This document shows, in pieces, positions 4,614 through 20,870 of a stretch of 46,976 nucleotides of DNA (position 1 is the first letter of the stretch; each line of letters begins with the position of its first letter). Source of the DNA: Promethearchaeota archaeon. Lineage in GTDB: Archaea > Asgardarchaeota > Lokiarchaeia > Sigynarchaeales > SOKP01. The notes beneath the pieces are model-generated. The model saw only the letters and a list, made by a program, of their open reading frames with translations, was not told where the DNA came from and ran no database searches. Made by a program: the position numbers and the translations under genes. The stretch covers positions 1 through 46,976 of the forward strand of contig JAUWBH010000022.1 of the NCBI GenBank assembly GCA_030605085.1, read 5' to 3'.

Positions 4614-7319
4614 ATGCAAATGTTTAAAAAAATAGCGCAAGAAAAATTAGGATTAAATGATACTGAAGCTCTTTGTTATGAACTACTACTTATAAAAGGT
4701 AAACTTACAGCTGGCGAAATATGTGTTTATGCCAATCTTGATGAAGAAACTAATTTTGAAACAATTAAGGGAATTTTAGAAAATTTTGTTGAGAGAGGAC
4801 TAGCACAAAAACTCCCTAAGGCTAAAGGGTTAGTTGATGTTTATGTAGCGGTTGCGCCTTTCGAAGGACTAGTCAAGCTCTTAGAAGAACTTGACAGAGA
4901 AATGGGAGAGCAAAGAAAAGAGATTGAAGCTGCGTTACAAAAACTCAAAGATGAGACTAAAAAAGAACTCACAGATGTCCGCACTAATGTTGAAACTGTC
5001 ATTAAGGACGAGAAAACGGCCATTAAAGATAGCACATCCAAGGCGAACGACAATATTACTCAAGCTACTGATAAATCCACTTCAGAACATAACGAAGCAC
5101 AAGATATGTGCAAGCAGAAAATTGACGAAACAATCACCACCACAAAAGAAAGTGTAAAGACTAATATTGACAACTTCAAGAAAGAAAGTGGAGATTCTAT
5201 TATAAAATATAAAGCTGATTCTACGAATAAGGCAAATGAGACTAAGGATACAATTATTAGTAAGTTTGAAGGCATGGATAAAGACGTAGAAAATTTATTT
5301 AGCCAAGGAAAAGATCAATTTTCAACTACCCTAAATGCTGCCAAAGATAAATCTATTGCCGAGAATAAATCACAGCAAGATAAATCCATGGAAAAACTAA
5401 ATAATTGGAAAGGAAAAACATTTACAGAATTTGATAATTTATCGAAATCTACCGGAGAAAAACTGGACGAAAATTTAAGCAATTTAAAAACTAAAAACTC
5501 AGAAAATGCGATTTCTCTTAAAGAGAATATAACCAAACAATCGGACGCTATCAAAACTAACCTTGATAATAACATTACCACAGACCGAGAGAAATTAGGC
5601 GAAGTACTCACGAATCTTAGCCAACAGACCTCAACTAATTTAACTAAACTTCAGGATGACCTATCGACGGCATTAGATCAAGAAAAGTCAGCTTTAGATA
5701 CTACTTTAGAGGGACAAAAAACTAGTCTTAGCGATTATTTAAATCAAAAATTTTCTGACATGAACACCAGCTTCACTGACCAGGTTAATACTCTAGATAC
5801 GGGTCTAAACGAGCAGAAAGAAACTCTAAATAGTAAACTTGACGAGCAGATGAACAAATTAATAGAATTTGGAAAAACATTCGTAACAGAAACCAAAGGG
5901 GAATTTGCTTCTAAAATTCAATTAGTTTTGGAATTTGTTAAAGGAAAATTTAAAGAATACGAAGACGCAACTCAGAAACAATTTGATTCCATTAAAAACG
6001 AGGTGGAAACTAAATTTAAGGAATTTTCAGAAAACTCTACAGCAACTATGGTGAAATTAAAGGAAAATATGTCGTCAAATATGAAATCTGTTGAAAAAGA
6101 GATAGATGGCAAGTCAACAGAATTTAATAACGAGCTAAAATCGCAACAAGCAACCATGCTGGAGAACTTTGGAAATACGCTTTCCGAGAACACCGCTAAC
6201 TTTTCGAATCAGTTGGATTCTAATTTATCTGAAATCGGGAATGGAATAGAAAGTGCTTTAAACGATACTAAAGCGAATTTAGTACAAATAATCAACGGCT
6301 CTAAGGACGCAACGGAAAAGAATATCTCCGACATCGGCGCTGAATTTAAAGATTTAGCCACATTATTTGATGAAAAAATTACAAGTGATGTAGAAAACGC
6401 GATTACCGATATTTCTACTAAATCTGATGAGTTAAATACAAAAATATCGAGTATATTTGAAGAAAACTCCAATATTACTACTACATATTATACTGGTTTT
6501 ACAAAAAGCCTTAACAATTTTTCCAATACCTTAACTGAAAAATCTAAAACAATAGGTAGCTTAACCCAATCCAAAATAAATGAAAACCTTGATACGCTTC
6601 AGAAAGCTTATATTGAAACCATTGGGGAAGCAGTTAATAGTTTCATTTCATCCATTAATAATTTAAAAGACTCTCTCACGAAAGAAATCAAAGGTATAGA
6701 TGACGACTTTACAAAAGCAACGGATAAAATCGGAATTGATTCGTTGAATAGCATTGATACACTTTCGAATAATATGTTGATTTCATTTGATAATACGGTA
6801 AGAGGAATTACAAATCCTATCGATAAAATATTAGAAGCTGCGAGAAACACTAAAAATGTTCTCGAGAATGTTTGGGATGATGTGAAAACTATGGAACTCC
6901 TCAAGGCTGAGGGCACTTGGCAAATTGTTACGCAACATACTATTATGACTTATCTCGAATCAATGGTGAAAAGAACGAAGCTACATTTCTTAATGGTAAT
7001 ACCTTCACTAGAATTCCTACCTGTGGATGCTATCCTGAATCTTAAACCTAGCCAAAAGGTAACAATAGCATGCCAGATTAAAAACAAGGAACTTGCAGAT
7101 AAGCTAATCCAATTGCATAACATAGATCTACGCATAATAAGCGAAATGAATGTATCGGTAATAGGTGCGAATCGAGACCAAGAAGAAGCATTTTATGGCC
7201 CCATAACTAGTAATCCTAATGAAATGGTTTGTACAATAACTCAGCAAGAGGAACTCATAAAGATTATTGCTGAAATGCTGTCAAGCTATTACAGAGGGCG
7301 TTCACGAAAATATAGTTGA
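4614..7319 (+). CDS. TrmB-like regulator with giant internal coiled coil
   Basis: 901 aa. Residues 1-95 match a TrmB-family winged helix: L-G-L-N-D-T-E-A at the start, a T-A-G-E-I helix, and a wing ending in a V-Y-V-A-V-A-P segment. Residues about 95-745 are almost free of aromatic and Pro residues, rich in K, E, D, N, S and T, with recurring heptad-like leucines and isoleucines: a very long coiled coil. Residues about 750-901 (from W-D-D-V) are a globular alpha/beta domain resembling the C-terminal domain that follows the helix in TrmB proteins (A-E-G-T-W-Q-I-V ... M-V-K-R-T-K). Ordinary TrmB proteins are 250-350 aa with one short helix in this place. ATG at 4614 or 4620 both fit; no strong ribosome site is seen. 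Monocistronic, divergent from the membrane protein. The DNA-binding role is inferred; it could link distant DNA sites or tether DNA to another structure. Confidence 0.8.
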   Translation: MQMFKKIAQEKLGLNDTEALCYELLLIKGKLTAGEICVYANLDEETNFETIKGILENFVERGLAQKLPKAKGLVDVYVAVAPFEGLVKLLEELDREMGEQRKEIEAALQKLKDETKKELTDVRTNVETVIKDEKTAIKDSTSKANDNITQATDKSTSEHNEAQDMCKQKIDETITTTKESVKTNIDNFKKESGDSIIKYKADSTNKANETKDTIISKFEGMDKDVENLFSQGKDQFSTTLNAAKDKSIAENKSQQDKSMEKLNNWKGKTFTEFDNLSKSTGEKLDENLSNLKTKNSENAISLKENITKQSDAIKTNLDNNITTDREKLGEVLTNLSQQTSTNLTKLQDDLSTALDQEKSALDTTLEGQKTSLSDYLNQKFSDMNTSFTDQVNTLDTGLNEQKETLNSKLDEQMNKLIEFGKTFVTETKGEFASKIQLVLEFVKGKFKEYEDATQKQFDSIKNEVETKFKEFSENSTATMVKLKENMSSNMKSVEKEIDGKSTEFNNELKSQQATMLENFGNTLSENTANFSNQLDSNLSEIGNGIESALNDTKANLVQIINGSKDATEKNISDIGAEFKDLATLFDEKITSDVENAITDISTKSDELNTKISSIFEENSNITTTYYTGFTKSLNNFSNTLTEKSKTIGSLTQSKINENLDTLQKAYIETIGEAVNSFISSINNLKDSLTKEIKGIDDDFTKATDKIGIDSLNSIDTLSNNMLISFDNTVRGITNPIDKILEAARNTKNVLENVWDDVKTMELLKAEGTWQIVTQHTIMTYLESMVKRTKLHFLMVIPSLEFLPVDAILNLKPSQKVTIACQIKNKELADKLIQLHNIDLRIISEMNVSVIGANRDQEEAFYGPITSNPNEMVCTITQQEELIKIIAEMLSSYYRGRSRKYS

Positions 7320-7352
7320 ATTAATTTAGCAATCTAAGTATTAATTAAGTTA

Positions 7353-7360
7353 TTTTTTTT
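7353..7360 (+). terminator. T-run after the coiled-coil regulator
   Basis: A T8 tract followed by further T-rich sequence to about 7380, 34 nt after the stop codon, fits archaeal intrinsic (U-tract) termination. Confidence 0.45.
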
Positions 7361-7468
7361 ATTTATTTTCTTTTTCTATTTGCTTAATTTATAATATTTA
7401 ATAGACTTCTGAAATTTTTTTTTCCTAAAAAAGGGAGTTTCAAAAACAATCATGTATTATGAATTACC

Positions 7469-8038
7469 ATGACTAAAAAACAAATTAAACCTAGTCCATA
7501 TTTATATCCTATGCCGACAATATTAGTTGGTGCGAATGTCCAAAAAAAACCGAATTTTGTTACCATCGCTTTTTGCGGAGGGCTTCAATATAACCCCCCA
7601 TTACTTGTAGTGTCATCAGGAAAAAATCATTATACATATAAAGGCATTAAAGAAAACAATACGTTTAGCGTAAATATTCCCTCGACTAAAATGGTTAAAG
7701 TAACTGATTATGTAGGTATGAAATCAGGGAAAGAGATTGATAAATCTAGATTATTTGACGTATTTTATGGAGAATTGAAAACAGCACCCATGATTAACGA
7801 GGCTCCACTCAACCACGAGTGTAGAGTCGCAAAAATCGTAGATTTAGGTGGAACTAACGATTTTATAATTGGAGAAATAGTCCATACCTATGTAAAAGAA
7901 GAATGCTTATCTGGAAGATCACCCGATATTCAAAAATTGGATCCAATTATTTTTTCTGGTTCTGATTCTAATTACTTGAAGGTTGGGGAAATCATCGCTA
8001 AAGCTTATAAAGTTGGGCGTGATTATACATCCGATTAA
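7469..8038 (+). CDS. Flavin reductase family protein (flavoredoxin-like)
   Basis: 189 aa, full length for the FMN-binding split-barrel flavin reductases. These bind FMN and pass electrons from NAD(P)H or ferredoxin-linked donors. Family signs are the N-terminal Y-P-M-P-T-I-L-V-G strand, T-I-A-F-C-G-G, the P-P-L-L-V-V-S strand, a N-T-F-S-V-N-I-P stretch near residue 68, the Y-V-G-M-K-S-G-K-E-I-D-K loop, and C-R-V-A-K near residue 113. The archaeal flavoredoxin type often serves as an electron-transfer partner. It starts at ATG 7469 and is monocistronic, convergent with the GNAT gene. The partner is unknown. Confidence 0.85.
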   Translation: MTKKQIKPSPYLYPMPTILVGANVQKKPNFVTIAFCGGLQYNPPLLVVSSGKNHYTYKGIKENNTFSVNIPSTKMVKVTDYVGMKSGKEIDKSRLFDVFYGELKTAPMINEAPLNHECRVAKIVDLGGTNDFIIGEIVHTYVKEECLSGRSPDIQKLDPIIFSGSDSNYLKVGEIIAKAYKVGRDYTSD

Positions 8039-10992: not shown

Positions 10993-11700
10993 ATGATAAT
11001 TACAGATGTTAAGACGCATTTAATCCAACCTGATCTTAAGATTAAAATTGGATCGATGCCACGATTCAGGGCATCTGGTTTATATACTCAAATCATAACA
11101 AACGAGGGTATTGATGGTTGGGCTTTATCTCACTGGAACTTATCAAATATGGCTCAAAAGCAATTTATAGATGAGGCATTAACGAGATTTTTAATAAATA
11201 GAGATCCTTTTATGACAGACGATATCTATATTGATACTTATCACATGTCAAATAGAATTATGTTTGGAATACCGCAGTCAACCAGCGCTGTGCAAGTTGC
11301 ATTATGGGATATTATTGGCAAGGCAACAAAACAACCTATATATCGGCTATTAGGTGCCCGAAAACAAAAAGTTCGCGCTTACGCTTCGTTTTTTAGAGTT
11401 TATAAACCTAAGGCTGCAGTTGGAGCGGTGCAAAGCGCAGTTCAAACGGGAGGACCACATATTTTTGGTTTTGGTCACACGGGTTAATATATCATTAACT
11501 CGGAACAAATATTAGCAGCGAACCTTCATTTTATTATGGCTTCTAGATGTGAAATTTGCGAATTTCCATATTATCCAGACCAATTTCAATTTCTCGAAGA
11601 ACCTATTAAGGTCGAAAAGGGAATTGTATCCGCCTTAGAAAAGCCTGGATTAGGAGTTGAAATTAATAAACAGATGTTTGAAGAAAATAAAGTCGCATAA
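10993..11700 (+). pseudogene. Mandelate racemase/enolase-superfamily gene, internally deleted
   Basis: The first part (10993-11486) encodes an N-terminal capping domain and the start of the barrel, matching sugar-acid dehydratase/mandelate racemase proteins: W-A-L-S-H-W, A-L-W-D-I-I-G-K-A, the P-I-Y-R-L-L-G-A-R turn, V-R-A-Y-A-S. It stops at a TAA (11485-11487). From about 11510 to 11700 another frame carries the C-terminal end of such an enzyme (F-L-E-E-P-I ... K-P-G-L-G-V-E-I). The catalytic barrel strands, with the Lys/His bases and Asp/Glu metal ligands (about 180 residues), are missing. A GGAAGGGG site precedes the ATG. Inactive remnant of a carbohydrate-acid catabolic gene. Confidence 0.8.
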
Positions 11701-18975: not shown

Positions 18976-19160
18976 CAAAAAGTCCTAACAATTATTTGTT
19001 CCTTGCCATTTAACATGATCTCGTAAGTATCTTTAATCTTGATTACAAAGAGAATGTGTTCTTAAAAATATCGTCTGGTGGCAAACCATTACCTTATATT
19101 ATCAATAATAGTACTCTTAATATGGAAAAATTTATATATCACTGGTACAAATATATATTC

Positions 19161-20870
19161 ATGGTATTCATGTTTGAAAAAAAAGTTAAAACAAAATATG
19201 GTACTTATATATATCTTTGCTTGGGACATACAAAATGGATAAACGGAAAATCCAAGCGAACATGGGAAGTCACCCTCGGCCGTAAAGATCAAATTGAGGA
19301 AATTCTGCCCATGATAAAGCGAAAGCTGTCTGGAAGCCTCCCAAAGCCCAGAGTACGTGCATTTGGTTTAATATATGGTCTATATTCGATTTCCAAAGAA
19401 CTAGAACTAAGTGATATCATCAATAAATGCGTGTCCAAACGAAAACAAGGATTTTCGGTCGGTGAATATCTTACGATCCTGGTTATAAATCGCGCAGTTG
19501 CGTTAAATTCCAAGAGCCGAGTCCAAGATTGGTTTAATAAGACCTCATTATCACGGCACTTTCAAGGGAAATCCGGCGCCTTATCTCCACAGAATATTTG
19601 GGATCAGATGAGCTATTTAGATAAGGAAACCATTAGAACCATTGAAGAATTAATATGTAAGAAATTGTTTTCTGGATTCCAACATCAATCTGATTGCTTT
19701 TTATTTGATCCAACCAATTTTTTCACCTATATTCGCGACTATAAGAAGAATTCCATCGCCCAACGGGGATATAACAAGAAAAAGAGAAATGATCTGCGGC
19801 AAATCTGTACCTCCCTGTTAGTAACCCGAAATGAGTACAATATACCGGTAATGCACGAGACCTACGAAGGAAACACCCCCGATATAACGCATTTCAAACA
19901 GGTGCTCCCCCTTATAGAACGCCGTTTTAAAGCCATTGAGCTCGAATTACCCAAGATCACGTTGGTATTTGACAAAGGAAATAATTCGAAAGACATATTT
20001 AAGTTCTTGGATTCTAAACACATCCATTTCGTCAGCAGCGTTCGACCCTCAATGAAAATTGCCAAAAAGCTCTTGGATTTGCCCTTATCAAAATACGAAG
20101 AGTTATGGAAAAAGGATAATGGACGGAAGGTATTTGGTTATCGGACTACGACAAGTGTATATCTTGGTAAAGCAAAACAAAATACATTAATCGTTACTTT
20201 TGACGAGGATACCCGTGCCTTACAGGAACACAATCTTGATAAATCAATTGGCAAGGCAATTTCGGAATTGAAGGTGTTCCTTGAGACAAAGTTAAATACA
20301 AAGCCGCAATGGAAAGATTCAGAAAAAGTGGCTTTAAAAATCAATCGAGACATTCTTAAAACCAAGAATTTACGCGCAATCATCGCATATTCCCTACAAA
20401 AAGCGAATAATCAGTTGGACTTATCGTGGAGAATTGACGATATCGCACGAGAGGAATGCGTGAAAAATTTTGGAAAATCCATCCTTTTTTCTAACAGAAA
20501 CGAGTGGAGCTTATTAGAAATAGTTAAAACATATCGCGCGCAAATCGGGGTAGAACGGCAATTTAAAGAATTGAATAAAAGGAGCAGGATTAGCGTCATG
20601 CCCATGTATCACTGGACGGATCAAAAGATAAGAGCGCACGTGTTTATTAGCGTGTTAGCTTTACTTCTCTCTAATTTACTTTATCGGAAAATCCAATTAT
20701 CTGAGATACATGGCTCCAAGGACAAATGTTTTGAGGCTTTAGAGGATATAAAAGAAATCCATCTAAATTACGACGATGATCTTCCTCCTGATGTGGTCAT
20801 TACCCAGATGTCATCCTTGCAACGCAAGTTATTTAAAACTTTGAATTTAAAGCGATTTATTAAAAAGTAA
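19161..20870 (+). CDS. Transposase, IS1634 group of the IS4 superfamily
   Basis: 570 aa from ATG 19161 (ATG 19170 equally possible). An upstream in-frame ATG at 19056 would add 35 residues that do not look like transposase. The conserved start region (Y-G-T-Y-I-Y-L, W-I-N-G-K-S-K-R) and DDE catalytic residues are visible: D183 in L-F-D-P-T-N-F-F, D271 in V-F-D-K-G-N-N, and E465 in Y-R-A-Q-I-G-V-E-R-Q-F-K. The last belongs to the Y-R-E-K signature of IS4-type enzymes. The frame is uninterrupted, so the element may be active or recent. Base use is less AT-rich than in neighbours. Confidence 0.85.
   Translation: MVFMFEKKVKTKYGTYIYLCLGHTKWINGKSKRTWEVTLGRKDQIEEILPMIKRKLSGSLPKPRVRAFGLIYGLYSISKELELSDIINKCVSKRKQGFSVGEYLTILVINRAVALNSKSRVQDWFNKTSLSRHFQGKSGALSPQNIWDQMSYLDKETIRTIEELICKKLFSGFQHQSDCFLFDPTNFFTYIRDYKKNSIAQRGYNKKKRNDLRQICTSLLVTRNEYNIPVMHETYEGNTPDITHFKQVLPLIERRFKAIELELPKITLVFDKGNNSKDIFKFLDSKHIHFVSSVRPSMKIAKKLLDLPLSKYEELWKKDNGRKVFGYRTTTSVYLGKAKQNTLIVTFDEDTRALQEHNLDKSIGKAISELKVFLETKLNTKPQWKDSEKVALKINRDILKTKNLRAIIAYSLQKANNQLDLSWRIDDIAREECVKNFGKSILFSNRNEWSLLEIVKTYRAQIGVERQFKELNKRSRISVMPMYHWTDQKIRAHVFISVLALLLSNLLYRKIQLSEIHGSKDKCFEALEDIKEIHLNYDDDLPPDVVITQMSSLQRKLFKTLNLKRFIKK

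Follow-up and report, generated by a model that had tools for sequence, protein, structure and literature searches.

How a protein whose two ends resemble the halves of a normal TrmB transcription regulator comes to carry about 650 further residues between them, and what such a protein might do, are the questions raised by a gene near one end of contig JAUWBH010000022.1 from a Promethearchaeota archaeon (assembly GCA_030605085.1), positions 1 to 46,976 of which form the window analysed here. The gene is one open reading frame on the forward strand, from an ATG at 4614 to a stop at 7319, and encodes 901 amino acids; coordinates, strand and length are those given in the first-pass annotation of this DNA. 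Its parts are as follows.

4614..7319, + strand: whole gene, 901 aa plus stop (open reading frame; relatives found)
4614..4865, + strand: head, residues 1-84, TrmB-type winged helix (Pfam TrmB; profile matches to TrmBL2 and TrmB)
4749..4793, + strand: recognition helix, residues 46-60, with Lys52 at the Tyr position of ordinary TrmB proteins (alignment)
4896..6848, + strand: hendecad rod, residues 95-745, within predicted helix 84-761 with three breaks (periodicity, AF2 model)
6849..6914, + strand: rod-tail joint, residues 746-767, end of the helix and then a low-confidence stretch (AF2 model)
6915..7316, + strand: tail, residues 768-901, PLD-like and of TrmB/TrmBL2 type, without the catalytic His and Lys (fold comparison, alignment)

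Judged from sequence comparison, this is a real gene, because the relatives P0002-P0004 align with it across the 901-residue protein at 51-59% identity and because changes between the window and L002 are far fewer at codon position 2 than at position 3 (0.06 versus 0.45 in the head, 0.23 versus 0.51 in the rod and 0.15 versus 0.53 in the tail). Its closest relatives (P0002-P0004 and L001-L003) belong to Loki-type archaea; P0003 carries the precomputed label PF28217.1. The genes of the window that were scanned with Pfam are mostly ordinary metabolic or transport genes, with no labelled SMC, ScpA or ScpB gene in the window, and no neighbour of the gene recurs among five Loki-type loci save for a generic dehydrogenase match; the L001 and L002 loci have neighbours in common with each other. 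Elsewhere in the window, a 164-aa frame at 10993-11487 (+) resembles, on inspection by eye, the first part of an enolase-superfamily enzyme and may be a broken gene, and a DDE transposase gene lies at 19056-20870 (+) (Pfam DDE_Tnp_1, 35.8 bits).

Both ends of the protein have the TrmB fold, as had been proposed from the letters of the sequence, the head by Pfam and profile comparison and the tail by comparison of folds; the first-pass annotation had reckoned with the absence of a structural match between either end and TrmB, and this did not occur. The winged helix read at the N terminus is borne out by a match of residues 11-82 to Pfam TrmB (PF01978; 27.6 bits, just above the cut-off of 25.6) and by a head profile (alignment A5) that finds TrmBL2 (E 9e-6) and TrmB (E 1.8e-4) among PDB sequences, although the head has a pLDDT of just 52-61 in the full-length AF2 model. 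The corresponding tail profile gave no relative among PDB sequences, so that a comparison of folds was needed, and by Foldseek the predicted structure of the tail is a PLD-like fold nearest to TrmB and TrmBL2, with TrmBL2 as the top match; the TrmB-type C terminus thus stands as a predicted structure and finds no counterpart at the level of sequence profiles. The tail (~134 aa) matches residues 111-242 of TrmB alone, and the protein ends there, leaving no sugar-binding second subdomain. In what we take to be the register of the phospholipase D HKD motif, neither the catalytic His nor the catalytic Lys is in place in any of the nine aligned rows.

The nearest known system is TrmBL2 (TK0471; PDB 5box, 5bpd, 5bqt), a chromatin protein of the Thermococcales that is also the best sequence match of the window head and that likewise consists of a winged-helix head, an amphipathic helix and a PLD-like tail lacking the sugar-binding subdomain. 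It differs in being 264 aa long, with a short helix and an intact R-x-Y motif, whereas the window protein has ~680 predicted helical residues and no such Tyr. TrmB of Pyrococcus and Thermococcus (PDB 2f5t, 3qph) differs in its 338 aa, its sugar-binding subdomain and its DNA-reading Tyr (excerpts of PMC4158304).

A helix is also predicted where the dimerising helix follows the winged helix in TrmB proteins, but what is a linker helix in TrmB is here hugely extended, to the ~680 residues just mentioned. The hydrophobicity of residues 96-745 has a period of 3.674 residues (11/3 = 3.667), seen as one sharp Fourier peak with a normalised power of 77 at 3.68 and 0.00 at 3.5, while the maxima in 200 shuffled sequences averaged 4.9 (sd 1.2; largest 8.4). 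The phase is coherent over ~600 residues, drifting from -24 degrees at residue 123 to -139 degrees at residue 717, with no step between overlapping windows larger than 22 degrees. Peaks at 3.663-3.675 are seen in the window protein and in each of 12 relatives, and an SMC arm gave 3.505 in the same analysis. The rod is thus a hendecad structure; the heptads that had been annotated are ruled out by the period and by the lack of power at 3.5. The description of the middle as rich in K/E/S/T/N and poor in aromatic residues was accurate, and residues 101-741 contain a single proline, at 735.

A single-chain AF2 model of the full-length protein, of moderate confidence (mean pLDDT 66.8, pTM 0.35), places helices at 84-266, 274-418, 423-560 and 568-761; the pLDDT of the rod is mostly 58-76, falling to 45-50 near two of the breaks. 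The helix prediction, moderate as its confidence is, and the continuous core stripe both argue against a disordered middle. With a rise of 0.15 nm per residue, 650-680 residues of straight helix would measure ~97-102 nm, close to the 90-100 nm first estimated. The two central bins of the stripe consist of 66-73% I/L/V/M/F and 2-5% Ala, and hendecad cores are said to require either small residues or a higher oligomer (excerpts of PMC9858780). Applied to a rod core with much I/L/F and little Ala, this rule would make three or four chains more likely than two.

The head had been described as DNA-binding, and this is the part of the first reading that has become doubtful. One tyrosine of the recognition helix is singled out for DNA reading in a review of the TrmB proteins (excerpts of PMC4158304), and TrmB and TrmBL2 carry R-x-Y in that helix. 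The Tyr is found in 17 of 19 rows of ordinary Asgard TrmB proteins (the other two have one Arg and one gap) and in none of 33 aligned rod proteins, even with two columns on either side included; the window protein has Lys52 in its place. The ordinary rows come from 18 stretches of five Asgard genomes (32 ORFs, 26 matched, 19 used), and include a chance match that reads as the gap (L095_1) and, as the single Arg row, a protein (L102_0) that resembles the short member L051 described below. The net charge of the recognition helix is -4 in the window protein, with means of -1.3 for the rod family and -0.4 for ordinary TrmB proteins and with overlapping ranges. Since the recognition Tyr is missing, we file the window protein on its sequence as TrmB-derived and not as a TrmB regulator. 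Loss of the Tyr does not exclude DNA binding, because MreA of Methanosarcina lacks it and nevertheless regulates (PMC4158304, same excerpts). The head is at the same time the most conserved part of the protein (6% change at codon position 2 relative to L002, against 15% in the tail and 23% in the rod), and it is probably constrained for something other than canonical operator reading. With the DNA-reading residues gone from so conserved a domain, what the head grips appears more likely to be a protein, or the backbone of a nucleic acid, than an operator.

The same architecture, which the first-pass annotation had suggested looking for in other archaea, recurs widely in the phylum, to whose 227 genomes the genome searches were confined: the tail profile matches 185 of them at E 1e-5 or better and leaves 42 without a match. 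Forty-five members were examined, one of which (L052) had no stretch between its matches and was dropped; where the head had no match, the scored stretch starts at residue 1. The 11/3 period is present in 39 of the 44 scored members (peak 3.62-3.70, above the largest of 50 shuffles), a sample that includes close relatives and is not one of independent cases. The five exceptions are L042 (3.71, below its shuffles), two L041 genes (3.730 and 3.735), L045 (3.585) and the short L051 (3.395). The linkers of the 39 range from 487 to 1509 residues, leaving aside a cut gene (L044) with 135; among six relatives at 51-59% identity, four are 903-905 aa long and two are longer (1021 and 1216 aa). Because the rods vary to this extent, they do not form a universal ruler.

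Pfam TrmB matches in five genomes fall into two size classes, in that 14 of 109, counted by size, are in frames of 728-1405 aa, whereas frames of 478-727 aa contain none. All five genomes looked at contain proteins of ordinary TrmB size alongside the long members. A tree of the tails (61 rows) supports the subfamilies well and their deep forks weakly. The rod of L003 (8001-11651, +) has been lengthened by three tandem copies of 105 residues in which the 11/3 phase is not exactly kept; its peak of 57.5 over 955 residues, compared with 97.5 over 641 residues for the window, is weak for its length, and lies at 3.62 (17.5) on a coarse grid and at 3.669 on a fine one. Alignment A7 was made without L005, which has masked residues.

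Several members depart from the common plan. L051 (5364-6326, +) is a 320-aa relative with the family tail and a short linker lacking the period, and might either preserve the ancestral size or have lost its rod secondarily. In L041 (5272-7251, + and 7343-9637, +), L042 (6830-9091, -), L044 (1-1431, +) and L045 (5293-7647, -) the TrmB tail lies in the middle of the protein with more sequence after it, and in L041, L042 and L045 a similar gene of 413-423 aa adjoins. The rod members of L047 (7043-9322, -) and L050 (6942-9302, -) lie near genes that resemble, by eye, small Rab-type GTPases.

Searches of the protein collection found close relatives alone, whether by head (3 of 661 candidates) or by tail (5 of 224); a full-length search kept four among the 7986 candidates sharing most words, of which two are named, both Asgard. 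A scan of genome contigs gave no loci with the single protein as query and eight with alignment A1. Among the titles and opening lines of abstracts listed, we found no paper on TrmB ends separated by a long rod. Martinez-Goikoetxea and Lupas (2023) reportedly surveyed hendecad coiled coils on a large scale, and their survey may include this family.

We consider it an even proposition that a TrmBL2-type protein has here been turned into a multimeric structural spacer or tether. The short dimerising helix of TrmB proteins would have been drawn out into a hendecad coiled coil of ~650-680 residues, or ~100 nm, along which several chains, probably three or four, would associate in parallel. The winged-helix heads would then lie together at one end of the rod and the catalytically dead tails of PLD type at the opposite end. 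In this arrangement the protein might keep two sets of partners ~100 nm apart or pack through its rods into larger assemblies. The bridging or tethering role first suggested would fit the modelled shape of the protein. Long and largely hendecad rods are also found in FilP and Scy, scaffold and cell-division proteins of actinobacteria (Scy exceeds 1000 residues), although these have a DivIVA-type N terminus and Ala-rich cores (excerpts of PMC9858780), whereas the window protein combines TrmB-type ends with a core poor in Ala. SMC condensin arms are likewise long coiled coils between DNA-related end domains; they differ in their heptad period and in having ATPase and hinge domains, which the window protein lacks.

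The main rival, to which we attach distinctly less probability, is a bridge or tether of the chromosome itself, in which the heads bind DNA, perhaps non-specifically through a basic wing, the rod spans ~100 nm and the tails bind other DNA, the membrane or an SMC-type machine. The kinship of both ends with a chromatin protein and the charge of +3 on the wing of the window protein are consistent with it. It is weakened by the loss of the DNA-reading residues, with an acidic recognition helix in the window protein, and by the behaviour of TrmBL2 itself, which coats DNA into stiff filaments and forms no DNA cross-bridges (excerpts of PMC4877046).

The genomic neighbourhood in the Heimdall/Hod clade also speaks for such a bridge, since each of the 11 genomes that carry the rod gene of this group has it next to genes of the SMC complex. 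A ScpA-like gene, named by its place and by its relatives in other SMC clusters and without a Pfam name, adjoins in 10 of these, with SMC as well in nine; in the eleventh (G008) the rod gene is at a contig end with two ScpB genes on its other side. In L006, L007 and L083-L086, the loci with long enough flanks, the order runs SMC, ScpA-like gene, rod gene (opposite strand) and two ScpB genes. A twelfth genome of the clade (G056), with a close ScpA-like gene, has no rod gene there, but a 100-base scaffold gap begins ~240 bases past ScpA and makes this genome uninformative. Against the connection, the rod gene is missing at each of the seven SMC loci read in other Asgard genomes (L067-L073, of which three are short contigs), the clade conserves unrelated genes on the flanks just as well, and the SMC-side proteins are members of the family whose orthology to the window protein is unsupported, the deep forks of the tail tree being weak. 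With evidence from one clade and none of the seven other loci, SMC partnership was set aside as the main explanation, and the link to the SMC cluster is only a lead. The Heimdall/Hod SMC cluster contains two different ScpB-type (kite) genes (Pfam SMC_ScpB, 56-66 bits against a cut-off of 27.4), for example at 5873-7048 (-) and 7066-7626 (-) in L006 and at 5995-7233 (-) and 7253-7813 (-) in L007; a 2020 paper argued that archaeal Smc complexes are without kite subunits (PMC7055376).

The spacer or tether that we prefer requires the rod to be extended. It might instead fold back in hairpins, with four helices of ~140-190 residues in a bundle of ~25-30 nm, so that the head meets the tail as in an ordinary TrmB and the protein serves as a regulator or sensor. 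The breaks of the AF2 model at 267-273, 419-422 and 561-567 would yield the even number of helices that this arrangement needs. We regard it as improbable: the hydrophobic stripe keeps its phase across all three breaks, with a coherence of 0.997 that 0.4% of 500 random-phase trials attained, for which reason we read the breaks as bends of the model or hinges and not as hairpins, the sole proline is not at any of the breaks, and AlphaFold is known for spurious bends in long coiled coils (excerpts of PMC11676326).

More improbable still is an amphipathic helix of the 11-residue kind that binds lipid or membrane in the manner of apolipoproteins. Pfam Apolipoprotein (PF01442) does match the middle with 103.4 bits against a cut-off of 90, ApoA-IV is among the PDB sequence matches (E 2.9e-5) and the 11/3 period also speaks for it. 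The stripe, however, is narrow, with two of 11 bins strongly and two half hydrophobic, and is made of bulky I/L/F, and the hydrophobic share of the rod (0.297) equals that of the SMC arm (0.297), the protein with which it was compared. The Apolipoprotein score would then be caused by the common 11-residue period; the matches to Baculo_PEP_C, to DUF7605 and to NCBIfam ZorA, the last with a score of 21.1 where the cut-off is 190, were likewise set aside as reflecting common period and composition.

That an ordinary TrmB transcription regulator has simply had its linker grown by neutral expansion, as its TrmB ends, the faster change of the rod and the tandem duplications in L003 might suggest, is very unlikely in view of a period that runs through the whole rod and through most of the members, the lost DNA-reading residues and the persistence of long members beside proteins of ordinary TrmB size.

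No known prokaryotes are more closely related to eukaryotes than the Asgard archaea, and to our knowledge little is known of the organisation of their chromosomes and cell interior. The wide occurrence of relatives in the phylum suggests that the window protein serves as a structural tether and not as a gene switch. For these rod genes, names assigned automatically, such as "TrmB regulator" and "apolipoprotein", are misleading. Across the phylum, the predicted rods are far longer than SMC arms (about 47 nm; excerpts of PMC5344682), and with ends derived from a chromatin protein in which the DNA-reading residues have been replaced, they offer a concrete and testable target. More tentatively, they may represent an Asgard class of giant hendecad rods, predicted to be ~75 to 225 nm long, derived from chromatin-type TrmBL2 and often present as several per genome, that would serve the nucleoid or the cell interior as tethers or as a skeleton and would be tied in the Heimdall/Hod clade to the SMC condensin.
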